Under the pieces are notes generated by a model, which was not told the DNA's origin, did not search any database, and worked only from the letters and a program-made list of their open reading frames with translations. From assembly GCA_945903465.1 (NCBI GenBank), contig CAMDOF010000023.1, forward strand, positions 1 through 64,000: DNA of 64,000 bases. The letters are read 5' to 3'. The DNA comes from Opitutus sp. GAS368 (GTDB lineage Bacteria; Verrucomicrobiota; Verrucomicrobiia; Opitutales; Opitutaceae). Within the stretch, counting starts at the first letter, position 1, and each line of letters starts with the position of its first letter. Shown here piece after piece: positions 28,452-46,821 of the stretch. A program made the position numbers and the translations under genes.

Positions 28452-31400
28452 ATGTCTGCGTCGCCCCCAATCTCCTTCGCCGCGATCGACCGCGACAATC
28501 CGTGGCCGGGTCTCGCGACGTTTACCGAGGATCAGCGCGCGTATTTTCATGGGCGCGACGAGGAGATCATCGACCTCACGCAGCTCGCCGAGCGGCGGCC
28601 GCTGGTCGTCCTCTTCGGCCAGTCCGGTCTCGGCAAATCTTCGATTCTCCAGGCCGGAGTGTTTCCCCGGATGCGCACGGACGGCTTCTGCCCGATCTAC
28701 ATTCGGCTCGATCACGGTGACGCCGCGCCATCGCCTACCGAGCAGATCAAGGCCATGGTCCGCACCGAGACCGCCAAGTGGGGCACGTGGACCAAGCCGG
28801 GCGTCGCCCAGCCGGGCGAGACGCTCTGGGAATTTTTCCATCACCGCGACGACCGCCTCCTCGACCGCGACGGTCTCGGCGTCGTGCCCGTGCTCGTGTT
28901 CGATCAATTCGAGGAGCTGTTCACGCTCGGTGCGGCCCGGGGCGAGCGGCGCGAGCGCGCGGTGGCGTTCATGAAAGAGCTCGCGGAGCTCGTCGAGAAC
29001 CGACCCTCCGCGCAACTCGTCGCCCGCCTCGATCAGTCGTCGGCCGAGATGGAGGCCTTCGATTTCGGGCGCACTGACTACCGCGTGATCATTTCGCTGC
29101 GGGAGGATTTTTTACCGGACCTGGAAACGCTGAAGACGATCATGCCGGCGCTCATGCAGAAACGCATGCGGCTCTCCCGCATGACCGGCACACAAGCGCT
29201 GGAAGCGGTCCTTAAGCCAGGCGGCGCGCTCGTGACGGACGACGTCGCCCGCGCGATTGTCGAGTTTGTCGCCGGCGCGCGCGGCGGCTCCGCAGAGCGA
29301 CTGGCCGAGCTGGATGTGGAACCGGCGCTCCTCAGTGTGATCTGCCGCGAACTCAACGAGCGCCGCCGCGCGCTCGGCCAGGCGCAGATCACCGCCGACC
29401 TCGTCACCGGCAATCGCCGCGAGATCCTGACCGATTTCTACGAGCGCAGCGTGGCCGATTTGCCGGCGGGCATGCGCACCTTCGTCGAGGATCACCTGCT
29501 CACGAAGTCCGGCTTCCGCGATAATCTCGCGCTCGAGACCGCGCTTGAATTTTCCGGCGTCACGCAGCCGCTGATCGACACGCTCGTCGCCCGCCGGCTC
29601 CTCCGCCTCGAGGACCGCGCCGGCATCCAGCGCGTGGAGCTGACGCACGACGTGCTCGCGGAGGTCATCCGCGCCGCCCGCGATGCGCGCCAGCAGCGCG
29701 TCGCGCTAGAACAGGCGCGCGAACACGAACAGCGCGTGCTCGCCGCCGCCACGCGCCGCACGCACCGGCAGCGATGGATCATCGGCGGGCTCGCGGCCGT
29801 GGTCCTCGTGCTCTGCGCCGCCGGGCTCTTCGGCCTGCGCCAGCGCCGCCTCGAATTCCAGCGCATCAGCCGGACCGACTTCGGCACGGCCTCGCGTCTG
29901 TTCGACGAAGGCAAAACCACCGACGGCCTCGCCCACCTGCTGCGCGCCGCGCGCCGCGATCCGCACAACCCCGCCATCGCGCCCCGCCTCGCCTCGCTCC
30001 TCACCTCGCGCAATTTCCTGCTGCCCGAGGGCGCGGCCGTGACCCATCCCTCGCCCGTGCTGTGGACGGACTTTTCCGCCGACGGAAAAAGCGCCGCCGT
30101 GCTCTGGCAGGATGGTGCCTACGGCCGCATCGATCTCGCGACCGGCGCGGTCGAGCGCTCGCAGTTGCCTTCGCCGCCGGTGGTTGGTTTCGGGACTACG
30201 ACGCGCGGGTTTTTTGTTATCCAGTGTCGGGACGGTGTCATTCGGGTCTTGGATAAGACGGGGCAACTGACCCGCGAATTCCGGTTTGAAGCCGAGCTGA
30301 TGCGGACCGGGCAGCGGAGCAGTGGCACTAGCACTAGCGGTAGCGCGCGGACCTATTCGGGCGACTTTTTTTCCACCACGCTCGCTGACCAGACGATGGT
30401 CGTATGCGATGCCGCCACCGGCCGCACGCTGCCACCGATTCCATTCGAGAATCCAAGCTTCCTGACGACCACCGGAAAATGGCATCTGTGGGGCGAATCA
30501 AGAGGCATGGGCGCCACCGAAACTCTTCCGACCGTGGCCCACCTGCGCGACACGGCAACGGGAACGACTGAGATCACGCTGCGAGCCCCTTTCGGAGCGT
30601 ATGTGCGGGCGATAAGTCCGACCGGCCGTCAGGTGGTGGCGGTGCAACGCGAGAGCGAAAACAATGCGCTCTTCCTCCGTCGCTACTCGTTGCCCGACGG
30701 CGCCCCGCTGGCTCCGGCGCAGCCCGTTGAAGGCGCTGTCGTGGCACCAAGGTTTGGAGGAGTGGGGCTGTTCTACAGTCCGGACGGCCGGTATATTGTG
30801 ACGTGGGCGACCGTCCTTGAGGTGTGGGATGCCGAAACCGGGGCCCGCATCGCCCGCATCGCGACCGAGAAATCTATTCGTGGCTGGACTGAACCGGTGT
30901 TCTCTCCCGACAACCAAACGCTGGCCACCTATTCCAACATCGGCTCACTCGATCTGTGGGACCTCGCCACGGGCAACCCGCGGGTGCCGGCGTTGAAACA
31001 TGGTGGCAACGTGATCGCGGCGAGGTTCAGTGCCGATGGCAATGTGCTGCTGACCACCGCCACCGACGGTTTTGTCCGCGTGTGGGATGTGGCCACCGGT
31101 CAGTTGCTGGCCGAGCCCACCTTGCAGCTACGCCGCCCCCCGATCACGGCAATTTCGCCCGACCGCACGCAGGTGACGATCGGCACGCGCGAAGGCGCCT
31201 GGTATCGTTTTCGGATCGGCCAGGGGCGGGCCAAGTCTGTGGCGCTGCCCCGGACGCCGCAGCCGATGCCGGCGCCGTTTCTGCCCGCGTCGCCCAGCCG
31301 GTTGCTCCAGATGCTCGGCGATCGTGCGCGGGTGATTGACGCCGCGTCGGGTCGCGAAGTCCCGGGCGGTTTCGCCTACCCCGAGCCCATCCGTCCCTGG

Positions 31401-32591
31401 TTGCGCGGAAACGAAAGAGGAAATACCTTGACCGACAGGTCGCGCGTGAGAACGGACTTCAAGGTGATGGTCGTGCAGACGGTTCCCGGCCCCTGGCAGG
31501 CTTGGTGGCTCGGCGACGGCAAAATCGAAAAGGTCGTTCCGCTGGCCGATGCCCCGGATGAAACAACGACTGGCAGCAACGTGGCGTTTAGCGCCGCCGG
31601 CGACCGGGTAGTCTTCGCAACGCCCAGATGGCTTAGCCTGCGGGTCTGGGACCTTCGGACTGGCCAGCCGGTGGGTCCGGCGATTGCGACGAGCGCGAGC
31701 ATTCTTGCTTTGACACGTCGCGTCAACTTCAGTCCCGACGGGGCTCGCGTGACCGTGGGAGTGAGGGCCGACGTGGGGCGGGTCTGGGACGCGGCGACGG
31801 GCAAGGAGGTTTTCCGCTTCGAAAACCAAGCCAATTTCATGCCCGCCATATTGTTCAGCCCCGACGGCAGCCGGATCGCGACCACGAGCACCCAGGGCGA
31901 AGCGCAGTTTTGGGATGGCCGGACGGGTGAAGCGGTTGGCTCGGTCTTGTTTCACAGCGCCGGCGTCCATGGTGCGGAGTTTTCCCCCGACGGCAACCTG
32001 CTCACCCATTCGGCCGACGGCGAGATGCGCCTCTGGGACCGGAACACCAGCACCCCCATCGGCGAGCCGATGCCGCTCGGGCTCGCCGCCATCGCGTCCG
32101 CGAAATTTTCGCCGGATGGAGGGCGCGTCGTGACCGCATCCAGCGACGGCACGGCGCGGCTGTGGGACGTGCGCAGCACCCTGCCGGCCACCGAGCCGCT
32201 GATGCAGGGGAAAGCGATTGTGCTCGCGGAGTTCAGCCCGGACGGCCGCTTCGTGCGCACGGGGACCGCGGACAATGTTTTTCACCTCTGGTCCGTGCCG
32301 CCCCCGCTGCCCGCGGGCGAGAAAACGCCGGAGTGGCTGCTCGACCTCGCGGCGATTTGCGCGGGCAAAACGCTGAACGAAGAAGGCCGGTTCATCCCTT
32401 CCGCCGATGCCTTCGGAAAAATCGCCGGCGTGCGCCAGACGCTCGCCGACCTGCCCGACGACGCGCCGTATGTGGAATGGGGCCGCTGGTTCCTCTCCGA
32501 CCGCGCGACGCGCTCGGTCGCCCCGGGATTCACGATCACGCCGGCGGAAGCGGAGAAGCTGGCGAAGGAAATGGGGGCGGCGGTACCGTGA
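28452..32591 (+). CDS. nSTAND1 NTPase with C-terminal WD40 repeats (putative sensor ATPase)
   Basis: 1379 residues. Residues 18-70 match the nSTAND1 opening (PWPGLATFTEDQRAYFHGRD), with Walker A GQSGLGKSS at 56-64. Walker B is VLVFDQFEEL, with Asp151 and the following acidic residue. ISLREDFLPDLE (about 214-225) and a winged-helix-like part follow, ending in a coiled coil (about 405-435). A membrane helix is predicted at about 440-462 (WIIGGLAAVVLVLCAAGLFG). The rest contains about 11-12 WD40-like units with FSPDG and VWD or LWD signatures (GVGLFYSPDGRYIV, AARFSADGNVLLTT, SAKFSPDGGRVVTA), enough for one or two propellers, ending in a helical tail. STAND proteins sense a ligand through the repeats and oligomerise via the NTPase. 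Next to a SIR2-TIR protein, a role in phage sensing or regulated cell death is plausible; no data support a specific trigger. Confidence 0.85.
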   Translation: MSASPPISFAAIDRDNPWPGLATFTEDQRAYFHGRDEEIIDLTQLAERRPLVVLFGQSGLGKSSILQAGVFPRMRTDGFCPIYIRLDHGDAAPSPTEQIKAMVRTETAKWGTWTKPGVAQPGETLWEFFHHRDDRLLDRDGLGVVPVLVFDQFEELFTLGAARGERRERAVAFMKELAELVENRPSAQLVARLDQSSAEMEAFDFGRTDYRVIISLREDFLPDLETLKTIMPALMQKRMRLSRMTGTQALEAVLKPGGALVTDDVARAIVEFVAGARGGSAERLAELDVEPALLSVICRELNERRRALGQAQITADLVTGNRREILTDFYERSVADLPAGMRTFVEDHLLTKSGFRDNLALETALEFSGVTQPLIDTLVARRLLRLEDRAGIQRVELTHDVLAEVIRAARDARQQRVALEQAREHEQRVLAAATRRTHRQRWIIGGLAAVVLVLCAAGLFGLRQRRLEFQRISRTDFGTASRLFDEGKTTDGLAHLLRAARRDPHNPAIAPRLASLLTSRNFLLPEGAAVTHPSPVLWTDFSADGKSAAVLWQDGAYGRIDLATGAVERSQLPSPPVVGFGTTTRGFFVIQCRDGVIRVLDKTGQLTREFRFEAELMRTGQRSSGTSTSGSARTYSGDFFSTTLADQTMVVCDAATGRTLPPIPFENPSFLTTTGKWHLWGESRGMGATETLPTVAHLRDTATGTTEITLRAPFGAYVRAISPTGRQVVAVQRESENNALFLRRYSLPDGAPLAPAQPVEGAVVAPRFGGVGLFYSPDGRYIVTWATVLEVWDAETGARIARIATEKSIRGWTEPVFSPDNQTLATYSNIGSLDLWDLATGNPRVPALKHGGNVIAARFSADGNVLLTTATDGFVRVWDVATGQLLAEPTLQLRRPPITAISPDRTQVTIGTREGAWYRFRIGQGRAKSVALPRTPQPMPAPFLPASPSRLLQMLGDRARVIDAASGREVPGGFAYPEPIRPWLRGNERGNTLTDRSRVRTDFKVMVVQTVPGPWQAWWLGDGKIEKVVPLADAPDETTTGSNVAFSAAGDRVVFATPRWLSLRVWDLRTGQPVGPAIATSASILALTRRVNFSPDGARVTVGVRADVGRVWDAATGKEVFRFENQANFMPAILFSPDGSRIATTSTQGEAQFWDGRTGEAVGSVLFHSAGVHGAEFSPDGNLLTHSADGEMRLWDRNTSTPIGEPMPLGLAAIASAKFSPDGGRVVTASSDGTARLWDVRSTLPATEPLMQGKAIVLAEFSPDGRFVRTGTADNVFHLWSVPPPLPAGEKTPEWLLDLAAICAGKTLNEEGRFIPSADAFGKIAGVRQTLADLPDDAPYVEWGRWFLSDRATRSVAPGFTITPAEAEKLAKEMGAAVP

Positions 32592-34239: not shown

Positions 34240-34671
34240 CTATGCTTTACCTGACTTCTTCTGCTCGTGGCGTTCAACCCCAAGGATGCGCCAGTCGGTT
34301 TTTTCCTTCGCAAGAGTAAAATCAAAGGACGCTCGCCCCATTTCAGAAGAAACCTGCACCGTCACATAGGCACGGGCACCGACCTCGCGCACGATCCCAA
34401 ACTCCGCGCGCGTATTAGCCCAGATTTCCGGATATCCCGCCTGCACGATAAAACCGAATTCTTGGATGGTTTTCTGCGCGCGCCAAGGCGCCGCGGCAAA
34501 ACTATAGGCCTTGGCGATGTCCCCCTGGCGAAACGCGACTAACTGTCCCTCAATCGTCGCCACGATGGCCGCCTTCACGTCAGGCTTACTCGCCCGAGGA
34601 ACGGCCTCAGCGGCATAACCCAGTGCCATCGCCAGTACCCCGAGCATACCCAGCCGAAACCCTCGACGCAC
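34240..34671 (-). CDS. DUF4864 domain-containing secreted protein
   Basis: About 143 residues from the chosen GTG at 34671. The leader is RRGFRLGMLGVLAMALGYAA. DUF4864 signatures follow: IVATIEGQLVAFRQGDIAKA, SFAAAPWRAQKTIQEFGFIV and GYPEIWAN. The domain has an NTF2-like appearance, like the DUF4440 gene that converges on it. The frame extends upstream to 34803, overlapping the 3-prime end of the hybrid kinase gene, but that extension lacks a leader. An alternative ATG is at 34647. It is the last gene on the strand after the Wsp-type operon with a 98-nt gap; its link to signalling is unknown. Confidence 0.7.
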   Translation of the reverse strand: MRRGFRLGMLGVLAMALGYAAEAVPRASKPDVKAAIVATIEGQLVAFRQGDIAKAYSFAAAPWRAQKTIQEFGFIVQAGYPEIWANTRAEFGIVREVGARAYVTVQVSSEMGRASFDFTLAKEKTDWRILGVERHEQKKSGKA

Positions 34672-34769
34672 CGCCCCTCGGCATGAACCGAGCAACCCTC
34701 GGCGAGACCCACCGTGGATCCAAAATTCGTGGCAGAAGTCGCCGCCAGCCGCCCATTTAGCCAGAGCTT

Positions 34770-36833
34770 TCACGAGGCACTCCCGCTCGGTGCTGCGCGG
34801 CACTGCTCAATCACCGCCTTCAGCTCCTCGACCCGCACGGGTTTGGAAATATAGTCGTCCATCCCTGCCGCTAAACATTTTTCCCGATCACTCTGGAGGG
34901 CGTTTCCTGTCATCGCCACAATGCGCGGGCGAAGGCGATCCGTGCCCGCCCATTTGTCACAAATCCGCCGCGCCGCCTCGTAGCCATCCATCTTGGGCAT
35001 CCGCACATCGAGAAAGATAAGATCATAAACCTTGGCTTCGAGCGCGGCAAGCGCCTCTTCCCCATTGCCCGCGACGTCCGCCTGGTAACCCAGCCGCTGC
35101 AACATCATCACGCCCACCATCTGATTGATCGCGACATCATCGACTAATAAGATCCGCAGAGGGAAACGCGCCGCGAGCGAATCGGCGAAGGGCGTCGCCG
35201 CCGGCGGGCGTTTAACGCGAGCCGGCAGACTCACCACGCAGCTCACCATCGCCTCCAACAATTGAGCCGGCCGCAGGGGTTTAACCACCACCACCGGCAT
35301 ACCCGCCGCGCTCACCTCTTCTGCGCGCAATCGGCGCAATGCCATGAGCAAAACGGCGGCGGCGCCCGCGTTAGCCCGCAGACGCGCGACCCCAGCGGCC
35401 ACCTCGGAACCAAAGAAGCCAGTATCCAAAACTAATAAATCATAGCACGCCCCAGGAACCGCCAACGCCGCGGTCGCCGCCACCAGGCTCGGTACCTCCG
35501 TCAAAAGCAGCCCCCAAACCGCGGCATACTGGGCAAAGGCCCGGCACTGGGCAGCGTTCGCCTCCACCAATAACACGCGCTTGCCCCGTAACATCGCAGG
35601 GGCCTGGCTCCAGGCAGGCAGCGCAAAATCATTCTGGCCCACCAGCACATTGAAATTAAATTTCGACCCGCGGCCCCCCTCACTCTCGACCCAAATACGA
35701 CCACCCATCAACTCCGCCAGCCGCTTACAAATCGCCAAGCCCAAGCCCGTGCCGCCGAATTGCCGCGTGGTCGAACTGTCAACTTGGCTAAAACTTTGAA
35801 AGAGCCGGTCCTGCTTTTCTCGCGGAATACCCAAGCCAGTATCCGCCACCGAAAAATGAAGAACGCGCTCGCCCGTTTTGGCGCCCGCACTCGCACCCAC
35901 CGAGACGACCACTTCTCCCCGCGCCGTAAACTTAACCGCATTACCAATCAGATTTACCAATATCTGACGCAGCCGCGTGATATCACCGACCACCATCGTC
36001 GGCGTGCTTGGTTCAAGTAGGACGACCATATCGAGTTCCTTTTCCGCCGCCTTAAACGCCAGCAACTGCATCGCTTCTTCGACGCATAACCGCAGGTCAA
36101 ACCCGCGCGTCTCTAACTCAATCATCCCAGACTCAATTTTTGAAAAATCTAAAATATCGTTGATAATCGCGAGCAGACTATCGCCCGAATTCTTGATCAT
36201 TTCCGCGATCGCCCGTTGCTCACCCGTCAAATCCGTATCGAACAAGAGCGTCGTCATACCAATGACCCCATTCATCGGAGTGCGAATCTCGTGACTCATG
36301 TTCGCCAGAAAATCCGACTTCGCGAGCGTCGCTTTCTCGAGTTTCTGATTTAGCGAAATGAGGTCGATATTACGCTCCGCGAGCTGGTGTTCGCTTTGGC
36401 GAAGCGCTCGAAAAGCTTCATCGCGCTGCCGGGCGTTGATCAATGATTCCGAGTGAAAACGCACCCGCGCGATCAACTCGACCTGATCGGGCAGCTTAAC
36501 CAGATAATCGCTCGCCCCGAGGGCAAAAGCGCGCGCCTTGACCTTCGGGTCTTCCTTCGTCGAAAGCACGATCACAGGGACATCGCGAGTAAGCGGGTCT
36601 GCCCGATATTGCTGCAACAAGTCAAACCCATCGATTCCCGGCATGATCAGATCCTGCAAAATAACCGTCGGCTTAAGCGTTTGCGCGAGCGCCACCGCTT
36701 GCCGTGGATCCTGGCAATAATGAAACGCCAGACCACTCAACTCCGCGAGACTGCGGCGCACGGCCTCAGCCACAATCGCCTGATCATCGACCAGCAGGAC
36801 AATCATGGAAAACGGCGGCTCGCGATCATTCAT
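34770..36833 (-). CDS. WspR-like receiver fused to hybrid histidine kinase (REC-HisKA-HATPase-degenerate REC-REC)
   Basis: 687 residues. Residues 10-130 are a receiver closely resembling that of Pseudomonas Wsp[39 protein letters not shown] (phosphoacceptor Asp61) and [20 protein letters not shown]. The WspR linker [18 protein letters not shown] (about 134-150) is also kept. Where WspR has GGDEF, this protein has HisKA ([20 protein letters not shown], His181), HATPase ([14 protein letters not shown] and [17 protein letters not shown]), a degenerate receiver ([13 protein letters not shown]) and a full receiver (Asp about 609 in [18 protein letters not shown]). There is no HPt and no GGDEF. It lies 15 nt after wspF in the operon. 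The likely role is to receive phosphate from WspE and pass the signal to an HPt protein; this is inference. Confidence 0.92.
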
Positions 36834-36848
36834 CAGGGAAGGCTGACT

Positions 36849-37877
36849 TTAGGCGGATCGACTCTGCGAAAGCAACTGCTGCACGGCAGGCCCGATTTGA
36901 TTGAGCGGCAACACGGCATCGGCGGCCCCGAGCTCAGCGGCAGCTTTAGGCATACCAAAAACCGCACTCGTGGCGCCGTCCTGGGCAAAGGTGGCAAAGC
37001 GGGCGTCCCGCATTTTCCGCAAGCCGCGCGCGCCGTCTTGACCCATCCCAGTGAGAATCACCCCCACCGCCGGCCCCTTCCAATACGCCGCGATACTCGC
37101 GAAACATTCATCAACCGATGGTCGATAAAAATAATCCGCCGGCTCGCGACGGTAGCCTAACGTACTTCGCGAGTTGAGCACCAAATGGTCCCCTTTGCCG
37201 GGGAGTAACACCGTGCCAGGGGTTAAGGAGTCACCCTCTCGGGCCAGACGAACCTGCAGCGGGGTTTGATCACCGAGCCACGCCGCCAATCCGGGCGCGA
37301 AACTTTCGTCAAGGTGTTGAATGACCAGAAACGCCGCCGCGGTGTCCGCCGGAAAATACTTTAAAACCGTGGCGAGCGCCGAAGGGCCGCCCGCCGAGGC
37401 GCCCAGCGCGACCAACCAGGGGAGGCCGCCCGAGGAGGATCGCTCCGTCGCAGGAAAAAACCGCGACGTCGTCGGCACCACCACCGGCCGCGTGGGCCCA
37501 ATCAGCCGACCCAGGGCCGTAATCTTCGCCAACAAGACGGCCGCACCCGCCCCAGTCAGCTCGGGGGTATTCACCGCATCCAAGGCCCCCGCACCCAACG
37601 CATCAAACACTCGGCCCGTTGATCCTTCAACTGTCGCGGTCACCACCAAAATCGCACACGGACTTTCCGCCATAATCCGCCGCGTCGCCTCGACCCCGTC
37701 CATGATCGGCATGATCAAATCCATCAGAATAAGATCAGGACGGGCTAACGCGCACTGGCGGACCGCTTCGGCCCCGTCCGCGGCCGTCCAAATCACCTGA
37801 TGCTGCGGCGCGCGCCCCAGCACTCGGCGCAACGCCTCAACCGCCATCCCCAAATCGTTTACCAGCGCGATCCTCAT
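36849..37877 (-). CDS. wspF: WspF-like CheB methylesterase
   Basis: 342 residues. Receiver domain 1-120 (RIALVNDLGMAVEALRRVLG; phosphoacceptor Asp53 in ILMDLIMPIMDGVEATRRIM). The esterase domain about 150-340 has the catalytic triad: Ser161 in LGASAGGPSAL, His188 in VIQHLDESF and Asp281 in ILTGMGQDGARGL. The opening RVLGRAPQHQVIWTAADGAEA is very like WspF of Pseudomonas, which resets WspA methylation. It overlaps wspE by 4 nt (translational coupling). In Pseudomonas, loss of WspF locks the pathway on; no such damage is visible here. Confidence 0.93.
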   Translation of the reverse strand: MRIALVNDLGMAVEALRRVLGRAPQHQVIWTAADGAEAVRQCALARPDLILMDLIMPIMDGVEATRRIMAESPCAILVVTATVEGSTGRVFDALGAGALDAVNTPELTGAGAAVLLAKITALGRLIGPTRPVVVPTTSRFFPATERSSSGGLPWLVALGASAGGPSALATVLKYFPADTAAAFLVIQHLDESFAPGLAAWLGDQTPLQVRLAREGDSLTPGTVLLPGKGDHLVLNSRSTLGYRREPADYFYRPSVDECFASIAAYWKGPAVGVILTGMGQDGARGLRKMRDARFATFAQDGATSAVFGMPKAAAELGAADAVLPLNQIGPAVQQLLSQSRSA

Positions 37878-40243
37878 GACCCGGCCTCCGATCCGCTCAC
37901 CGCGTCTCCGATCAAATCACGCACCGCGTCAAGCATCGTGTCATCGTGGAAGCTGCCCTTCGTAAGATAATAATCCGCACCCGCATCCAGCCCTCGCCGC
38001 CGATCCTCTTCGCGATCTTTGTAAGAAACAATCATCACCGGAAGCGCCCTCAACTTCGCATCCTGCTTGATCAACGTGGTCAACTCCACCCCATCCAGCC
38101 GAGGCATATCGACATCCGTAATAACCAAATCGTAAACGCCGGTTCTCACCGCATTCCATCCCTCCATCCCATCGACCGCAATTTGTACGGCATAACCGCG
38201 CCCTTCCAAAAGCTTTCGCTCAAGCTCGCGTACCGTGAGCGAATCGTCGACGACAAGAATCCGCTTCGGTGTCACCGCGTGGGCCGCGGTCGTCGTCAGC
38301 ACCCCGCCAAGCACCGCTCCCGCCGCGATTTTTTCCACCGAACCCACAAAGTCTTCCATATCGATAATCAGCACCGGCGCGCCATCCTCCATCACGCTCC
38401 CTGCGGAGATATCCTTGATCTTTCCCAACCGAGGATCAAGTGCCTGGACGACGCACTCGCGCTCACCCAAAAAACGGTCCACGACCACTCCAAACTGCCG
38501 CGCGCCCTCCCCCACGACCACCACCGAGAGCGCCCCAGCCCGCGGCGTGCCGCTCTGGCCCAAAACCTGAAAAGCATTCACCAATCCTGTCCGCCGCCCT
38601 TCAAATGCAAAATGGGCCCTCCCCTCGGTCGAGGCCACTGCGCTCTCCGCCAACCGCAACGTATGCGCGATAAAACCCAGCGGCATCGCGTACGGTTCCC
38701 CCGCCACTTCCACCAGCAGCGCGCGGACCACCGAGAGCGTCAACGGCAACTGGATTTGGCATTGCATACCTTGCCCCACCACCGAAACCGCCCGCACCGT
38801 CCCCCGCACCGCCTTCACCATACTTTGCACCACATCAAGCCCGACCCCACGGCCCGAAATTTCCGTCACCGTCTCCCGCAGCGTAAATCCAGGCAAAAAA
38901 AGAAATTCCAGTAGTTCAACCTCACTGAGACGCGGCGCCACCTCAGCACTTACCAGGTTTTTGCGAACAACGGCCGCCCGTATCATGGCGGGATCGACGC
39001 CGCTCCCGTCGTCACGCACTGAGACCCACAACCGACCTGCCCGATGCCGCGCTTCGAGCGTGACCGTGCCCTCCGCGGGTTTCCCCGCCGCCAATCGCAC
39101 CTCTGGTAACTCGATCCCATGATCCACCGCGTTGCGGACCAAATGCCCCAGCGGCGCCTCTAACTTGGCCAACACTTCGCGATCCACTTGAGTTCCTTCC
39201 CCGATCATTTCCAACCGCACCTCTTTGCCCAGCGACCGCGCAATATCACGCACCATCCGCGCCAACCCACCCACCCCATCAGAAAACGGCCGCATCCGCA
39301 CCGCGAGCGCCTCGCCATAAAGCCGCTGCGCCAAACCAGCCGATCTCCGCTCATGCGTTTCCAGCTCTTCCAGCCGACCCGCCAAATGCTCACGACAATG
39401 CTCCAAGCATTCCTGCGCCTCCGCCAGTGACTCCCGAATGCGCAGATCCGATTCCCCCGCGTACAAACGAGCCCGCAGTCTAAAAAGGGTCCGGTCAAGT
39501 TCACTGTGAAAACGCTTCAAACGAGAAACCGAAGCCCCAAACGGACGGATCCACCGGGAGGCCACCAGCGACTCACTCGCCAGACCGAGCAGCCGGTTGA
39601 GATTTTCCGCCGTAACTCGTAACGTCGGCACCTCTGGCGTTTCTCCCCGCTCCGTCACTTCGAGACGCTTGGGCCGTCTCCATTCCATCGATCCAGCCTT
39701 TTCTGCGACAAGACCCCTCCCTGGTTCATCGCTCACCAACGGAGCCGACCGGGCCGGGCCCGCCGCCGACCGCTCCTGCTCTGGAAAATTACCCCCGCAC
39801 CCCACCCCGTTCCCCTCATCGGCCCGCCCCGCCACCGCCGTCGCGGACACGCTCACCGTCCTCAAGCGGCGAATCCATTCAACCGCAGCTCCAGCGTCAG
39901 CCTCGGCCCAAATGGGCAGGTCGGTCTCCGGCGCTTGCGCAATCCGCGCCAGTAAATCAACCCCACTCAAAAGTTGATCGACCATCGCGCGACCCAGCAC
40001 CACTTCGCCCCGCTGCGCCGCTACCAAACAATCCTCCATCGCGTGCGTCACCGCCACCACTGCGCCGATCCCCACAATCCGCCCAGCACCTTTCAGCGAA
40101 TGCGCCGCCCGCATGATCTCCTCCAGCGAGTTCGTCTCACCACGCTCCGACGCCAGCAACCCTTCGGTCAATATCGCAAGCTGACTTTCCGCCTCCATTC
40201 GAAAGAGCTCGAGCAACGACATATCTTTCAGGTGCTCGTTCAT
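37874..40243 (-). CDS. wspE: WspE-like hybrid CheA histidine kinase (HPt-CheA-CheW-REC)
   Basis: 789 residues. The HPt domain (1-110) has the phosphorylated His48 in EIMRAAHSLKGAGRIVGIG. A linker, a dimerisation helix region and the ATPase domain follow (LGHLVRNAVDHGIELPEVR N-box; VRDDGSGVDPAMI G1; GRGVGLDVVQSMV G2). A CheW-like domain (about 510-640, QCQIQLPLTLSVVRALLVEV...) and a C-terminal receiver (about 660-780: RILVVDDSLTVRELERKLLE, Asp in DLVITDVDMPRLDGVELT) complete the chain. This is the WspE/FrzE arrangement: the kinase both phosphorylates the output receiver and has its own phosphate sink. It overlaps wspD and wspF by 4 nt each. Confidence 0.94.
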   Translation of the reverse strand: MNEHLKDMSLLELFRMEAESQLAILTEGLLASERGETNSLEEIMRAAHSLKGAGRIVGIGAVVAVTHAMEDCLVAAQRGEVVLGRAMVDQLLSGVDLLARIAQAPETDLPIWAEADAGAAVEWIRRLRTVSVSATAVAGRADEGNGVGCGGNFPEQERSAAGPARSAPLVSDEPGRGLVAEKAGSMEWRRPKRLEVTERGETPEVPTLRVTAENLNRLLGLASESLVASRWIRPFGASVSRLKRFHSELDRTLFRLRARLYAGESDLRIRESLAEAQECLEHCREHLAGRLEELETHERRSAGLAQRLYGEALAVRMRPFSDGVGGLARMVRDIARSLGKEVRLEMIGEGTQVDREVLAKLEAPLGHLVRNAVDHGIELPEVRLAAGKPAEGTVTLEARHRAGRLWVSVRDDGSGVDPAMIRAAVVRKNLVSAEVAPRLSEVELLEFLFLPGFTLRETVTEISGRGVGLDVVQSMVKAVRGTVRAVSVVGQGMQCQIQLPLTLSVVRALLVEVAGEPYAMPLGFIAHTLRLAESAVASTEGRAHFAFEGRRTGLVNAFQVLGQSGTPRAGALSVVVVGEGARQFGVVVDRFLGERECVVQALDPRLGKIKDISAGSVMEDGAPVLIIDMEDFVGSVEKIAAGAVLGGVLTTTAAHAVTPKRILVVDDSLTVRELERKLLEGRGYAVQIAVDGMEGWNAVRTGVYDLVITDVDMPRLDGVELTTLIKQDAKLRALPVMIVSYKDREEDRRRGLDAGADYYLTKGSFHDDTMLDAVRDLIGDAVSGSEAGS

Positions 40244-40899
40244 AGCAGGCTGCGGCTCAGCCGATAAAACAACCCTTGATCATCAAGCACCCCCACCGAG
40301 CGCCCGCGCCACTCAAGCATCCCCCTCGTAATCGCCGCCGGCGCATACCAAAGGGTCGCCGGAACCGAGCTGATCTCCGCTTCGTCAAATCGATACAACC
40401 CCGCAACCTCATCCACTAAAAAAACAAACTGCTCGCGCTCACGACTCACCACACCCAAACGGGCCAAACCGGTCGGCGTGGCGCTTGGCTCACCGGCCAG
40501 ACCCAGCGCGGCCGCGAGCGAGACACACACCAAGAGTTCACCTCGAATATTCACCACGCCCACCACCACCCCCTCCCGGCGATGGGGGAGAGAGTGCACC
40601 GGTCGCACCGATGCCACTTCACGAAAAACGGTGGTCGCCAGCGCCAGCCATTCGCGGCCAAGGCGAAAAATCACCACGGACAACTCAGCGAGCTGGATCT
40701 TTTTTTTCGGCACCGCATAACGCCTCGCCGCTTCTAAAAGATAAGCGTCCGAGACTTCAGCCTCAAGCAAACGGGCGGCGCCAGCGGAATACACCGGGCA
40801 ATTTCGGCAATGCACATGGACGCTTAGCTGGGCGCACGTCCGGTCTCCAAACGTGCCAATCTTCCGCCAACAATCTCCGGCATTTATCGGAAGGTTCAT
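40240..40899 (-). CDS. wspD: WspD-like CheW scaffold protein
   Basis: 219 residues. The first 70 residues include a CxxCP-like element (HVHCRNCPVYSAGAARLLEA) as found in WspD homologues. The rest is a CheW fold (VVIFRLGREWLALATTVFRE, VRPVHSLPHRREGVVVGVVN, GELLVCVSLAAALGL, LYRFDEAEISSVPATL). It is one of two CheW-type couplers joining receptor and kinase in this operon, as in Wsp. It overlaps both neighbours by 4 nt. Confidence 0.9.
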   Translation of the reverse strand: MNLPINAGDCWRKIGTFGDRTCAQLSVHVHCRNCPVYSAGAARLLEAEVSDAYLLEAARRYAVPKKKIQLAELSVVIFRLGREWLALATTVFREVASVRPVHSLPHRREGVVVGVVNIRGELLVCVSLAAALGLAGEPSATPTGLARLGVVSREREQFVFLVDEVAGLYRFDEAEISSVPATLWYAPAAITRGMLEWRGRSVGVLDDQGLFYRLSRSLL

Positions 40900-42170
40900 C
40901 GGGCCCCTTTCTTCAGCACACGCTGGGTCCGCTCACGAAAACGACGCGCCTCACCCTTGTGCCCGTTTCTCTCCGCGAGCAACGCGAGGTGCGCCAACAC
41001 GTCGACGCGCTCCGGATCAAGATAAAGCGTTTTCCGAAATAAAAACTCCGCCCGCACCGGATCCCCCGCCGCTTCGGTTAATATCGCCATGAGAAAAAAT
41101 AGCGGAGCAGACGCCCCCTCCCGCCCAAGTAGTTTTTCCCCCAAGATCATCGCCTCTCCCATGTGTCCGCGGTTTGCCATGCGCTCGATTTCTGCGACCA
41201 TCTCACCCAACTCCAAGCGATCGTCGCCTGCCACGGCAGCCGACCTACCAACCTCCCCACCTTGGGACGCAGCCTTTTCACGATCACTCGCGCCAAAAGA
41301 TAAAAATGGACCGGGCAGGCACGGTCGAGTCTCCCTCGGCTTCTCCGGCCGCGCACCCCACCGCACCGGCGCCACGACCCGCCGCTGGAGTAAAAAACCC
41401 GACGGCATGGGCAGCGACGCGTATCCATGTTTAAAGAACAGCACCGACTCGGCCGGCCCCACCGCAAACCAACCATCCGAGACCAACAAACGATCCATCT
41501 TCCGAATCACCTTCGCCTGAGTCGCGCGGTTGAAATAAATCAGCAAATTACGACAAAAAATCGCGTCATACCCAGGCCGACCCAGATGAAAATTTTCAGC
41601 TAGGATATTCCCCCAGTCAAATCGCACCGCGGCACGCAGGTGATCGCGCACCCGCCAATGATCTTCGCCCAGCGGGTCCAGATAACGGTCTCGAAATAAA
41701 AGATCATTCCCACGAAACGAATTAGGACCATAAACGCCGAGACGCGCTTGCTCGAGATTCCGCGGACTAAGATCCACCGCATCAATTTGCACGGAAGAAA
41801 GCGGGTGGCCCGCCATATCCAGAGCCATCGCCAACGAGTACGCCTCTTCACCCGTTGAACAGGGTAAGCTCAGCACCCGCAACGTGGCCCCCGGATGCGC
41901 CTCGCGCCACGCCCCAACAACGTGCCTCCCCAGTGCGTCGAAGGCCGGTCGATCCCGAAAAAACCAGGTCTCCGGCACGATGACTCGATCAATAAACGCG
42001 TGACGCTCCTCCGCGTTCGCCGTCAAACAGGCGAGGTACTCCGCCTCAGTTGGACAAAAAATCGCCCGCATCCGTTCACGGACGACCCGCGCCACCGTCT
42101 CTGCACCGAGCGCCGATGCATCGAGGCCGGCAAATAATTGCAGCCAGGTTTCGATCGCACCTTCGTTCAT
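40896..42170 (-). CDS. wspC: WspC-like CheR methyltransferase with TPR
   Basis: 424 residues. The all-alpha N-terminal part is followed by the SAM-dependent methyltransferase domain (VIVPETWFFRDRPAFDALG; SAM site LRVLSLPCSTGEEAYSLAMA; IDAVDLSPRNLEQAR; IFCRNLLIYF). The C-terminal 120 residues look like TPR helices (MIAEIERMANRGHMGEAMIL-type, LDPERVDVLAHLALLAERNG), which WspC also carries. It methylates the WspA-type receptor, opposing the CheB esterase. It overlaps wspB by 4 nt upstream and wspD by 4 nt downstream. Confidence 0.92.
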   Translation of the reverse strand: MNEGAIETWLQLFAGLDASALGAETVARVVRERMRAIFCPTEAEYLACLTANAEERHAFIDRVIVPETWFFRDRPAFDALGRHVVGAWREAHPGATLRVLSLPCSTGEEAYSLAMALDMAGHPLSSVQIDAVDLSPRNLEQARLGVYGPNSFRGNDLLFRDRYLDPLGEDHWRVRDHLRAAVRFDWGNILAENFHLGRPGYDAIFCRNLLIYFNRATQAKVIRKMDRLLVSDGWFAVGPAESVLFFKHGYASLPMPSGFLLQRRVVAPVRWGARPEKPRETRPCLPGPFLSFGASDREKAASQGGEVGRSAAVAGDDRLELGEMVAEIERMANRGHMGEAMILGEKLLGREGASAPLFFLMAILTEAAGDPVRAEFLFRKTLYLDPERVDVLAHLALLAERNGHKGEARRFRERTQRVLKKGAR

Positions 42171-42664
42171 CCGACCAGTACCCTCATTGGCTCAGGGGGC
42201 GTTACTCCGAACCCCGCTTGAACAGCAACCGCCTCACCGATGCGACCCTCGAGCAACTCAGGTACGTCCACGCGTTGCACCAATCCACGCGCATCTCGCG
42301 CCACCGGCCCGCGGAAACCACCCGTGCCTCGCACCACCCCCGTTGGTAAAAAATCACGGTCCTCAAAACGAATCATCTCCGTCGCCCGTTCCGCCATAAC
42401 TCCGAGACATTCCGCCCCACCCGCCCGCCGCGGATGCTTGACGATGAGCAAACGCGTACTCACGCGACGAGCCGACGGCCGCCCAAGCACGAGCATCGCC
42501 AGATCAATCACCGGCACCGCCGTCCCCCGATAATCAAATAGCCCCACCAAACCCACCGGCGCACCCGGCAATCGCTTGAGCGCCAGCAGGGGCAATACCT
42601 CCACGACATCGAGCGCCGGCAAAACATAACGATCCGCGTCGAGGTGAAATAAAATAAAAAGCAT
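42167..42664 (-). CDS. wspB: WspB-like CheW scaffold protein
   Basis: 165 residues, a stand-alone CheW fold: MLFILFHLDADRYVLPALDV, VEVLPLLALKRLPGAPVGLV, FDYRGTAVPVIDLAMLVLG, RLLIVKHPRR and a C-terminal EGRIGEAVAVQAGFG. It couples the WspA-like receptor to WspE. It lies 27 nt after the receptor gene and overlaps wspC by 4 nt. The second of two couplers in the operon; the pair is a hallmark of Wsp-type clusters. Confidence 0.9.
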   Translation of the reverse strand: MLFILFHLDADRYVLPALDVVEVLPLLALKRLPGAPVGLVGLFDYRGTAVPVIDLAMLVLGRPSARRVSTRLLIVKHPRRAGGAECLGVMAERATEMIRFEDRDFLPTGVVRGTGGFRGPVARDARGLVQRVDVPELLEGRIGEAVAVQAGFGVTPPEPMRVLVG

Positions 42665-42691
42665 AACAATAATATCAGCGACGGCCGGGGC

Positions 42692-44407
42692 TCAGGTGCG
42701 CACTTTAAAGCGCGCAACGCCCGAGCGCAGACCCCTGGCCGCCTCGTCCAACCGACGCACCGTCTCATTACTTTGAGCCAGGGAATCCGCCGTCTGCCGG
42801 GCCGCTTCTCCCAGCTGGGTCAACGCTTGGCTAATCTGCTCCGCTCCCGTCGTCTGCGCCTGCATTCCTTCGCTCACCGAAGTAATGCGGGGCGTGATCG
42901 CCTGTACGTTTCCAATAATCTGCGTCAATTGGTTCGCCACTTTTTCAATGTCGGTGACTCCACGGCGCACCTCCTCGGAAAATTTATCCATCCCCATCAC
43001 CCCCGCCGTCACGGCCGACTGAATCTCTTTCACTAACTGCTCAATGTCGACCGTCGCCGCGGCGGTCTGGTCCGCGAGGCGGCGAATCTCCATCGCCACC
43101 ACCGCGAAGCCCCGCCCATATTCACCGGCCTTTTCCGCTTCAATCGCCGCATTCAATGAGAGCAGATTGGTTTGGTCCGCCACCTTCGCGATCGCCGTAA
43201 CCACCGAGCCAATATTCGCCGCTTTGTCATTGAGGACCGCCAGCCGATCATTAACGCCTCCCGCGGCCGCTGTCACCAGGCGCATCGTCCCCTCCATCCG
43301 GCCCAGCGCCTCTCGTCCGCTATCCGCCAACACCGCCGTCTGACGGGCCCCGTCGCTCACGTGCGCGACACTTTGAGCGAGATCTCGCGACGTCGCCGAA
43401 ATCTCCCGCGACGTCGCCCCAATCTCAGTCGTGGTCGCCGCCACCTGATTAGCCGTCGACTGCTGCTCTTTCGCCGTGGCGGCCACCTCGGTAATTACTG
43501 AAGAAACAATGACGCTCGAGCGCTGGACCTCCGTGACCAACGAGGCCAGTTTTTGCCCCATGGCGGCGAGCGTGTTTCCCATGACGTCGCGCTCCGATTG
43601 GGGCCTAAATTCAGCGGTCAAATCGCCCGAGGCCACGCGGTTGGCGGCTTCACTGAAAGACTGCAGCGAGCCCACGAGCCGCCCAAACGATTGGGTCAAC
43701 TGGCTGATCTCATCTTGGCCGTAGACCTCGGGTAACCGCGCGGTGAGATCGCCACCCGCGAGCACGCCGACGGCGGCGGAAAGTTCCTGCACCGGCCGGG
43801 TTAAGGCACGGGCGAAATACAAAACCGCAATCACGGTGCCGATGAAAATAACGAAGATGAGGCTGAGCGAAAAAAAGCGCTGGTAAGTCGCACGGGTGAT
43901 CCGGTTGGAAATTTGTTTTTCTGATAACCTGTAAAAATTGTCCAAACGCTTATCCAATTCCCAACGTAGCGGTAAATAGGTGATGTTAAAATAAACTCCC
44001 GCCGCGTTCCGATCAGAGCCAAGTAAATCCAGGAGTTTCTTTTTCGTTTTACTTAAGCGGTCTGTTTCGATTTCGCGGATAGCAACCGCCTCCGACCCAA
44101 ATTCCGGCTGATCGCTAACCATCGCTAACAGTTCTTCGATCGTTTTGGAAATATGGGCATCCGCGGCAACGAGTCGCTGCTGCTCGATCTGGCTCAACGG
44201 ATCGAGGAGCAAGCCCCGCAACGCATCGGTCACCTTCAATGCATCAAAACGAATCAACGTGGAAAGTTTGTCGACCTGCTCACGCTGCCGGTTGGCGCCT
44301 TCTTCGATTTGCAGCGTAAAATGAAAGAAGCTAAACCCCCCGGCGAGGGCGAGCATCACGATGCCAAAGAAGGCGTATAAACGCTGGGCGATAGTCCAGG
44401 ATTTCAT
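42692..44407 (-). CDS. wspA: WspA-like methyl-accepting chemoreceptor
   Basis: About 571 residues from the ATG at 44407 ([20 protein letters not shown]); the frame from 44440 adds 11 residues. Membrane helix 1 at about 8-29, periplasmic part about 30-185, helix 2 about 188-208 ([20 protein letters not shown]), HAMP about 209-262, then the signalling helices. The hairpin tip [20 protein letters not shown] and [20 protein letters not shown] are the trademark of this receptor class, and [16 protein letters not shown] matches WspA strongly. WspA senses surface contact or envelope stress in Pseudomonas and forms lateral clusters. It is the first gene of the operon; the promoter should lie in 44408-44766. 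Confidence 0.93.
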
Positions 44408-44766
44408 AAAAGGAACCAGAGTTAAATTGAATGATGACATGAAGTAAAACCCCTAAAAGGGACGCGCAGACGGCCTCGCCATCTCAGGTATGGACTCAGC
44501 TGCGGGCATGGCGGGTAATTTTCTAGAGCCCCCCACAGCCGAGCCCATCGCCGACCACGCCGAGCAGGCCCCTGCGGGCGAACCAAAGGCCCGCTGGTCA
44601 CGCGCCTCCAGCAACCACTCCGAGATCGCGCCGAGCGACCACCTCAGCCTCAACCTCGAGCACGCCCCAAGCAACCGCCGGCCCCACCGCGCCCACCGCG
44701 CGGTCGGGGCCCAAGCAACGACGCGAAATCCATCGCCCCAAATTGAGCGCAGCCCACGCTACTGGT
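44408..44766. other. Divergent promoter region between wspA and GNAT gene
   Basis: About 360 bp. Frames present are shadows rich in Ala/Pro/Arg. No riboswitch or clear operator was recognised by eye. Confidence 0.5.
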
Positions 44767-45261: not shown

Positions 45262-45629
45262 ATGAGATCATCCGCAAACTTTTCAGGGCAACCGCGATGC
45301 CCTGCTCAGCAAGGCCCGGGCATCACTTCGCTCTCAGAAATAACCACCCCACCCTCCGCACGACCCGCCCAAATCAGTTCAGACCTCCGCCCACGCTTTC
45401 ACCAGCAGCCCGCCGCCCCTCACCTTCTTCTAGCATTTTTTATAAGAAGTAAGGTTGAAAACCGGAATTAACCGTCGCCCACGCTCGCCTCTCCGAGAAA
45501 AATAATTTCCTCAACAGTCATTTTCGCGGGGCCGTTTTTCAGCGATACCCGCGCCCAATAAAATCACCGGGTATTTATACCTATATTTTTGCTTTGCGCA
45601 TCTCCGCCAAATGATTGGCTTATGAACCT
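45262..45629. other. Intergenic region upstream of the HPt gene
   Basis: About 370 bp without a supported gene. The last 120 bp are relatively A/T-rich (GTATTTATACCTATATTTTTG near 45570-45590), a reasonable place for the HPt promoter. No operator or RNA fold was recognised. Confidence 0.5.
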
Positions 45630-45968
45630 ATGCCGAGTTCCCCCCCGCCCAACGATGCGATTGCCGATCTCGCCAATGTACTCGGTGACGATAATGTCCG
45701 CACGTTAGTCAGCACCTTCTTGCGCGACTTTCCTGCCTCCTTCAAAGCACTCAGCGAAGGTGATCGTAAAAATCAGCATCGCATAGCCCATAGTTTAAAG
45801 AGCACCTTCCGGCTCATGGGGGCCTACACACTCTCCGAGCGGATGACCGAGTTGGAAGATCGGTTGGCCCCTGAAACCGGTCCGGGCATCGCACCCGCAG
45901 AGCTCGTCGCCATTAAAAACGAGTTCGCTCTTGTAGAAATCAGCTTGCGCACATTCGCGGAAGCGTGA
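45630..45968 (+). CDS. Free-standing HPt domain phosphotransfer protein
   Basis: 112 residues, essentially one HPt helical bundle. The phosphorylatable His is in RIAHSLKSTFRLMGAYTLSE (His54, matching HSLKSxxxxxGA). Flanking helices IADLANVLGDDNVRTLVSTF and ERMTELEDRLAPE fit the fold. HPt proteins move phosphate from a hybrid-kinase receiver to a response-regulator receiver. The hybrid kinase at 34770-36833 lacks an HPt, and a LuxR-type regulator ends 49 bp away on the other strand, so this protein could link the two. The frame opens at a TTG at 45615, but the ATG at 45630 is preferred. Confidence 0.9.
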   Translation: MPSSPPPNDAIADLANVLGDDNVRTLVSTFLRDFPASFKALSEGDRKNQHRIAHSLKSTFRLMGAYTLSERMTELEDRLAPETGPGIAPAELVAIKNEFALVEISLRTFAEA

Positions 45969-46017: not shown

Positions 46018-46821
46018 TCAAGAGACCGGTATGATCCGGCTCGAGACGACCCGCTCAGGGCACCGCACCTCAGTGCCCCCATTTCGGCGGCCGCCGGCAT
46101 CAGCCGAGCCGACCGCCAGATCCTCACCTCCCGCCAACTTCACCTCGGCCCGGGAATCTTCTAACAAACCAACTCGTATGCACCAACGCGTGAGGCTCGC
46201 AACCTCACGAAACCCCGTTTTCAACCTAATGTTCGAACGATGTTTTTCGACGGTGCGCACACTCAAGTTTAGATACTGGGCGATCTCCTTAGACATCCTC
46301 CCCGCCGCCACAAATCTCGCGACTTCTCGCTCGCGCAACGAGAGCTGCCCCTTCCCTGCCTTTTCTGGTTTCTCCAGCGGCATCACTTTGACGCCACGCT
46401 CCGATGGCTGAATGGCAAAAAACAGCCCGCCGGCCCGTACCGACTCTACCGCTCCGATCAAATGCTCGATGGGTGAGCACTTGTCCACGTAACCCTGAAC
46501 CCCCAGCGTCATCAATTCCGATGCCTGGCGGGCGTTCGGATACGCCGTGATCATGAGAATTTTTAAACGGGGCAATTCTCGAACTAATAACCTCACAATC
46601 TCCATGCCATGAAGGTCGGGCAGCTTATTATCGATCACCAAAAAATCGGGCCTCTCCCGGCGACAAAAATCCAAACCTGACTGCCCGAGTCCAAACGATC
46701 CGACGACTTCAAGGCCCGCCAAACGCCGCAAAACTACGAGCAGTAACTCACGAAACATCGCTTCGTCTTCAATTAAGACGACGCGATGGGTGCTGGATAG
46801 TTTGCTGCTTATTTCAATCAC
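46018..46821 (-). CDS. NarL/LuxR-type response regulator
   Basis: 267 residues. Receiver (11-130: RVVLIEDEAMFRELLLVVLR; phosphoacceptor Asp64 in DFLVIDNKLPDLHGMEIVR; Lys in GYVDKCSP). LuxR helix-turn-helix (about 155-220: LSLREREVARFVAAGRMSKE and IAQYLNLSVRTVEKHRSNIR). A tail of about 45 residues is Glu/Ala/Gly-rich and without known motif. It likely activates or represses transcription when phosphorylated. It is convergent with the HPt gene (49-bp gap) and about 1.6 kb beyond the Wsp operon start. Confidence 0.9.
   Translation of the reverse strand: MIEISSKLSSTHRVVLIEDEAMFRELLLVVLRRLAGLEVVGSFGLGQSGLDFCRRERPDFLVIDNKLPDLHGMEIVRLLVRELPRLKILMITAYPNARQASELMTLGVQGYVDKCSPIEHLIGAVESVRAGGLFFAIQPSERGVKVMPLEKPEKAGKGQLSLREREVARFVAAGRMSKEIAQYLNLSVRTVEKHRSNIRLKTGFREVASLTRWCIRVGLLEDSRAEVKLAGGEDLAVGSADAGGRRNGGTEVRCPERVVSSRIIPVS

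Follow-up and report, generated by a model that had tools for sequence, protein, structure and literature searches.

The 64,000-nucleotide stretch of Opitutus sp. GAS368 analysed here (contig CAMDOF010000023.1; hereafter the window) carries on its minus strand, at 34770-44440, seven co-directional open reading frames (ORFs) that run from a methyl-accepting chemotaxis protein (MCP) to a multidomain output protein. Their order and orientation are those of Pseudomonas wspA-B-C-D-E-F-R (compared with the Pseudomonas locus L065), with 4-nt overlaps at four of the junctions and gaps of 27 and 15 nt at the remaining two. An earlier note, made from the sequence alone, had described a Wsp-type chemosensory operon of seven co-linear genes in which the GGDEF output of WspR is swapped for a hybrid histidine kinase. 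All seven genes are confirmed, the MCP gene starting at 44440 (position 44407, given as its start in that note, is an internal Met, codon 12). Here, we consider how widespread this kind of output is, how it is joined to its receiver, and where the signal may go.

The core proteins were assigned by Pfam and by identity, over aligned parts only, to Pseudomonas sp. HMWF032 (L065), which stands in for the Pf0-1 reference of PMC8552884. The WspA-like MCP (42692..44440, 582 aa), with a HAMP domain at residues 209-260 and an MCP signalling domain, is 47% identical to HMWF032 WspA over 455 aligned residues. It is followed by a CheW in the WspB position (42167..42664; 42%), a CheR methyltransferase in the WspC position (40896..42170; 34%), a second CheW in the WspD position (40240..40899; 40%), a CheA with Hpt, HATPase, CheW and C-terminal receiver (REC) domains in the WspE position (37874..40243; 48%), which is the only CheA seen in this genome, and a CheB methylesterase with REC in the WspF position (36849..37877; 50%). 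The third protein had been called CheR-TPR, a designation that stands for CheR, while its weak C-terminal TPR signal stays below the Pfam cut-offs (best E 0.0014). Two traits of the ACF class are present, namely a multidomain response regulator and a CheA carrying REC.

The output protein (34770..36833, minus strand, 687 aa) consists, according to Pfam, structure matches and alignment, of REC1, a coiled-coil linker, HisKA, HATPase, REC2 and REC3. Its residues 1-150 (36384..36833) form a WspR-type receiver with the start of the linker, carry Asp61 at the acceptor position, and align to Pseudomonas WspR with 67% identity over 151 residues. Among solved structures, residues 9-159 match WspR best (3bre, 214 bits; 3i5a, 204 bits), the next receiver being PleD at 72 bits. 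The window receiver scores 227.6 bits against a hidden Markov model (HMM) trained on 24 proteobacterial WspR receivers of the GGDEF type; over 479 domains from the loci collected up to that analysis, the 24 training rows included, this model places Wsp-type receivers at 181-270 bits and all others at 74 or less, with outliers of 147 bits (a receiver-only protein) and 110 bits (at a contig end) among the former. Asp16, Asp17, Asp61 and Lys113 of REC1 are invariant in 10 of 10 aligned rows, the window among them. The WspR-like receiver and linker are thus borne out, and so is the kinase said to follow them: there is no GGDEF domain, and HisKA (171-236), HATPase (283-396) and two Pfam stretches of REC stand in its place, with the His box and ATP-binding motifs intact. 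REC2 has no Pfam match at E 0.001 in the window protein and was placed by alignment with relatives, among which L079 and L174 each have three REC stretches by Pfam. The reading of the C-terminus as a degenerate REC followed by REC holds in that both are present, REC3 with its acceptor Asp609, but REC2 is less degenerate than had been stated, keeping Asp470 at the acceptor position and Lys518, with Ala425 where nine of nine aligned relatives have Asp. No further sensor domain was found in the protein by Pfam.

Outputs attached to WspR-type receivers

Kinase-type outputs are common in Verrucomicrobiota, which was surveyed for the same fusion. When 387 genomes of the phylum were searched for WspR-type receivers (E at most 1e-25), 30 genomes held one, joined to a kinase in seven, to SpoIIE in 22 (Pfam-confirmed in four of these) and to GGDEF in none, with one receiver-only protein; one of the SpoIIE genomes (G403) also has a second receiver of this type without a recognised output. 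Of the seven kinase loci, six have the CheA core within the fetched stretch, as do 14 of the 22 loci with SpoIIE, and the remainder may be orphans or have their core farther away. A second sample, of 384 genomes of the class, yielded 62 such receivers in 56 genomes (12 places being already known from the phylum sample), with kinase outputs in 37, SpoIIE in 17, GGDEF in two, a nucleotide cyclase in one and none recognised in five; the 37 kinases include one with Lys for His and one in a short reading frame. CheA or CheB lies directly upstream in 23 of the 31 new kinase rows, and two more rows are second outputs of such a cluster. The two GGDEF rows and the cyclase row have neither gene in the fetched stretch. 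Within the genus of the window the operon is patchy, close CheA relatives being present in 3 of 24 genomes.

The same receiver reaches well outside this phylum. In a scan of named genomes, from which 80 of 157 loci were taken in, 38 of the 80 (L062-L099) carry a WspR-type receiver above 100 bits whose output is GGDEF, a kinase, SpoIIE or a cyclase, and the record titles include Pseudomonas, Competibacter, Massilia, Verrucomicrobia, Planctomycetes, Nostoc, Crocosphaera, Bryobacterales and Desulfobacteraceae. Each output class occupies the 3′ slot after cheB at least once: GGDEF in L065, kinase in the window, SpoIIE in L153 and cyclase in L087. Some planctomycete loci have a different gene arrangement, and several cyclase loci show no Che gene in the fetched stretch. 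In a plasmid collection, full R-type operons were found on Mesorhizobium and Novosphingobium replicons, for which the 30% identity rule was not computed.

Unlike outputs can share a genome or a cluster. Two genomes have two receivers each, one with kinase and GGDEF (G465; L291 and L306) and one with kinase and SpoIIE (G493; L280 and L299), and in a Desulfobacteraceae cluster (L086) a nucleotide cyclase and a SpoIIE phosphatase are both WspR-type outputs. In L088, a Wsp operon from Bryobacterales, a STAS-domain gene (11202-11537) directly follows the REC-SpoIIE output, which suggests a partner-switching output there.

Heptad register of the receiver-output linker

Linker lengths were measured between the His closing the conserved motif of the receiver and a fixed anchor in each output, the output anchors being short sequence patterns. 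In a first set of 74 distinct linkers, identical ones being counted once, the lengths were 53, 46 or 18 for kinases, 37 for GGDEF, 37 or 30 for SpoIIE, and 37 for one type of cyclase as against 35 or 28 for the other; all 74 agree modulo 7 inside their output class. The pattern missed L094, L152 and the second protein of L170, and the L094 linker, later measured at 35, is in register with L087 and L086.

The register prediction was fixed before a second set was examined, with lengths stated for kinase, SpoIIE and GGDEF outputs and not for cyclases. This set comprised 50 receivers from genomes not read earlier; four without a recognised output were left unmeasured, and all 46 measurable linkers are in register, 40 by script with a slightly looser receiver pattern and six with anchors set by hand after the sequences had been viewed (in L298, the anchor is the Lys at the His position). 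New lengths appeared in four cases, 32 for a kinase (L301), 30 for two GGDEF proteins (L306, L307) and 30 for a cyclase (L308), and each is a multiple-of-seven shift. The chance of four out of four is about 0.0004 if the cases are independent and about 0.003 if the two GGDEF proteins represent one event, figures weakened by the hand-set anchors in three of the four. Across both sets, the kinase receiver-to-His spacings of 53, 46, 32 and 18 are all 4 modulo 7.

The proposal of a clean module exchange at the linker is thereby both supported and sharpened, as linkers of one class differ by multiples of seven. The simplest reading of these lengths is that an exchange of outputs or of linker segments has to preserve the phase of the coiled coil, not its length. 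Heptad dependence of linkers is known for light-sensor kinases (PMC6798134), and a limited literature search found no statement of the rule for WspR. Extending this, WspR could be one case of a general adaptor, in which a constant receiver and a heptad-quantised coiled-coil linker take at least four output classes in the same post-cheB slot in several phyla, and in which keeping the phase makes the outputs exchangeable. They would comprise diguanylate cyclase, SpoIIE phosphatase, class III nucleotide cyclase and histidine kinase, the last attached on at least two separate occasions, and every one of them occurs after cheB in one or more loci. We regard this generalization as evenly balanced.

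Origins of the kinase-type outputs

A kinase-type Wsp output was already known from Burkholderia, so the idea itself is not new: a histidine kinase, WspHRR, has been suggested to have taken the place of the cyclase module there and to act by phosphorelay (PMC4324302), and PMC8552884 describes this form as the H-system, with no significant change in cyclic di-GMP (c-di-GMP) in wsp mutants. PMC8552884 further states that Wsp occurs exclusively in beta- and gammaproteobacteria and wspH in Burkholderia alone, that no H-system with a 3′ regulator was found, and that no genome has both systems. That source defines Wsp by syntenic wspA-F genes with at least 30% identity each; in the window the order is kept and the identities are 34-50%, so that Wsp is not limited to beta- and gammaproteobacteria as published, and the window also conflicts with the confinement of WspH to Burkholderia. 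On a replicon of Burkholderia stagnalis YJ-2, a full WspR-type operon (L180) was found together with a WspH-type cluster (L229, in which CheA, CheR, CheB and a REC-kinase were seen), which contradicts the statement that no genome holds both.

We built a core tree of 50 loci from the CheA core, CheR and CheB, leaving out 14 near-copies or duplicates by name as well as loci without a CheA above 100 bits and a CheB above 60 bits. The two Burkholderia WspH loci are sister to a Burkholderia WspR locus (100/100), and the window falls within a clade of six kinase-type verrucomicrobial loci (100/100). A single clade for all 14 kinase rows was rejected on this tree (delta lnL 169; approximately unbiased (AU) test, p 2e-48). 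The kinase halves also set the Burkholderia and window forms apart, with Burkholderia WspH matching the window kinase at 32-41 bits versus 204-362 bits for other hybrid Wsp kinases. The kinase form of the window, which belongs to another phylum, thus looks independent of Burkholderia WspH.

Two origins of kinase-type Wsp outputs are firmly indicated by these trees, and more than two are likely. L168, with a plain kinase (94 bits), probably represents a third case, and the L301 kinase (67 bits) may be a fourth; a quick tree of 42 Wsp rows that included the long-branch L301 needed four changes. Whether the verrucomicrobial kinase cores have a single origin is borderline by the AU test (p 0.047 with 12 rows, 0.073 with 10). 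In a careful tree of the histidine kinase halves, built without the distant Wsp kinases L168, L228 and L229 and without eight groups of rows that were weak or long-branched, the 12 hybrid kinase halves form one side of a branch with a support of only 61/88. From a 74-row tree, L275 was excluded in addition because it was too short.

The direction implied by a GGDEF domain swapped for a kinase fared less well. GGDEF outputs occur in none of the 30 phylum genomes and at 2 of the 62 class places, the REC tree alone is too weak to root the outputs, and the trees leave the choice of ancestral output unsettled; GGDEF is therefore not shown to be ancestral. The module-exchange reading is otherwise largely right.

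Proposed signal flow and relation to known systems

We favour, as moderately probable, a Wsp-type array with a hybrid histidine kinase as its output, analogous to Burkholderia WspH but of independent origin. The WspA-like receptor and the two CheW proteins would set the autokinase activity of WspE, with CheR and phosphorylated CheB tuning the array by methylation. Phosphorylated WspE would then phosphorylate Asp61 of REC1, a transfer that we consider very likely. Phosphorylation would change the pairing of REC1, and the heptad-phased coiled coil running into the DHp helix would turn the kinase up or down; that REC1 gates the attached kinase in some such way is likely, if less so. The kinase would pass its phosphate to REC3 and from there, via an Hpt, to a separate regulator. 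These steps are drawn from known families, while the window itself holds the full wspA-F core and, in the 3′ slot of wspR, a receiver that keeps its phosphorylation residues, followed by an entire HisKA-HATPase and further receivers. Apart from the operon and its domains, the invariant REC1 residues, the linker register and the CheA or CheB genes upstream of most new kinase rows, the proposal is favoured because the genome yielded few c-di-GMP parts (a single GGDEF and neither EAL nor PilZ), because the only two Hpt domains found in it are those of WspE and of an adjoining free Hpt protein, and because there is a precedent in Rhodospirillum centenum CheA3-CheS3 (PMC3868531).

The free Hpt protein (45615..45968, plus strand, 117 aa; Pfam) is the only stand-alone Hpt found in the genome. 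Its gene lies some 1.2 kb away from the operon start and tail to tail with that of a LuxR-type response regulator (REC-GerE; 46018..46821, minus strand; Pfam), and it is unlikely to be so near the operon by chance. In the relative L079, an output protein of this type carries a fused Hpt at its C-terminal end, which fits a relay ending in Hpt. Since the Hpt-LuxR arrangement was not seen in relatives, we rate the free Hpt as a candidate partner only: a relay through it is possible but tentative, and the LuxR-type regulator, a weak candidate, is a doubtful final target.

A number of observations weigh against this picture. A Pfam search for Hpt in 10 kinase-type or related genomes, several of them in many contigs, found no free Hpt beside the operon; the window Hpt itself has no match at E 1e-4 in the scanned loci, in a scan without a positive control, as its own ORF lies outside the scanned part. 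The LuxR neighbourhood was likewise not seen in relatives, the best matches of the regulator (about 53 bits) being in SpoIIE-type loci without a Che core. Seven other places in the genome match this kinase core (a match of the core only) and might share the free Hpt, and the 8.16-Mb genome is 93% complete, so further Hpt or GGDEF domains may be missing. Six of the 31 new kinase rows of the class sample have no CheA or CheB in the fetched stretch. One kinase-type output (L298, 3549-5249) has Lys at the phospho-acceptor His, which means that kinase activity is not universal among such outputs; it is possibly a pseudokinase. The AlphaFold model, a single helix from REC1 into the linker (117-169), has low confidence there (below 50 from residue 147) and was not used. 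Finally, phosphorylation of the CheS3 REC is inferred to lower, not raise, kinase output (PMC3868531). Separately, the neighbour of the L298 output is another WspR-type receiver protein, which has a short tail containing cysteine.

The array might still act through c-di-GMP, with the kinase phosphorylating the genome's single REC-GGDEF protein so that the cyclase sits in a separate polypeptide. The fusion of this sole GGDEF domain to REC accords with such an arm, as does the presence of at least one GGDEF match in each of six same-family genomes with the kinase form (that of the window, G000, and G024, G017, G053, G080 and G306), and in G003, whose contig ends before the output gene. No GGDEF gene lies near the operon in the window's genome, but in the close relative G024 the only one lies about 2 kb beyond it, a further point against the phosphorelay. 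Its nearness may be incidental, since in both genomes the GGDEF gene follows what we take, by eye, to be a tryptophan synthase alpha gene. The GGDEF gene is on another contig in G000 and G080 and hundreds of kilobases off in G053 and G306, the kinase-type genomes G032 and G278 have no GGDEF match, and no EAL or PilZ was found in G000, although the GGDEF, EAL and PilZ searches were positive in 8, 6 and 5 of 14 control genomes. A c-di-GMP arm through the separate REC-GGDEF is thus possible, and as the main route we hold it to be unlikely.

REC1 could instead be a phosphate sink or docking piece, the kinase being under other inputs and the array feeding another regulator. The protein does have three receivers, one of them partly degenerate, and receivers on CheA kinases can be sinks (PMC3868531, PMC10782961), but no other sensor domain was found in it, the register from linker to His box is fixed, and REC1 belongs to the kind of receiver phosphorylated by WspE in Pseudomonas (PMC8552884); we consider this rather improbable. 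Direct membership of the Burkholderia WspH lineage by transfer is far less probable still. Both forms are of the same functional type, a WspR-like REC ahead of a kinase (PMC8552884), but the WspH cores group with a Burkholderia WspR locus in the core tree, which also rejects a joint kinase clade, and WspH has one receiver, a weak match to the window kinase and a receiver-kinase join 35 residues nearer the receiver.

Beside the operon, a DUF4864 gene (34240-34803), considered as a possible eighth member, overlaps the end of the output gene; among the loci scanned, a homologue was found only in L063, directly upstream of the MCP gene. Farther along the window, 28452-32591 encodes a large protein that by eye is NTPase-like and then has WD40-like repeats.

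In Pseudomonas, Wsp converts a surface signal into a second messenger. The window operon resembles that system in gene order and in its receiver with linker, and its core is 34-50% identical, but the Pseudomonas WspR output is a diguanylate cyclase and that of the window a kinase. A Wsp array is thus not to be read as a c-di-GMP device by default. The natural fusions on one receiver and linker offer material for studying receiver control of different enzymes via coiled-coil phase, and the only free Hpt found in the genome is a concrete candidate relay partner. Within the library searched, there was no report of a kinase-type Wsp in Verrucomicrobiota and no paper treating WspR together with SpoIIE; a Planctomycetes study lists WspA-WspR annotations (PMC6461901), and PMC8880074, considered as a parallel, was set aside because it concerns a single-domain regulator. 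A survey of CheR-TPR (ACF-class) clusters reports that about 40% of response regulators carry HisKA-HATPase and names phosphatase and nucleotide cyclase outputs, its accessible part not singling out the WspR-type receiver as the constant element (PMC3447774).

The likeness to the R. centenum Che3 system (CheA3-CheS3-CheY3) lies in a CheA-type kinase acting on the N-terminal REC of a second kinase, which is predicted here from the genes, whereas there CheA3 was shown biochemically to phosphorylate the N-terminal receiver of CheS3 and to control it (PMC3868531). CheS3 is a REC-REC-PAS-HWE kinase, unlike the window protein. Burkholderia WspH is another close counterpart, having a wspA-F core and a WspR-like receiver fused to a histidine kinase without GGDEF. 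Its gene, however, lies 5′ of the operon, while the output gene of the window is the last, 3′ of cheB, and WspH is a plain kinase of 377 aa, not a hybrid with further receivers. What is added here is a lineage outside Burkholderia, with a different kinase in the 3′ position: kinase outputs of Wsp systems have more than one origin and occur commonly in a phylum beyond the printed range. That of the window represents a widespread form, new and of independent origin, of the output type known from Burkholderia.

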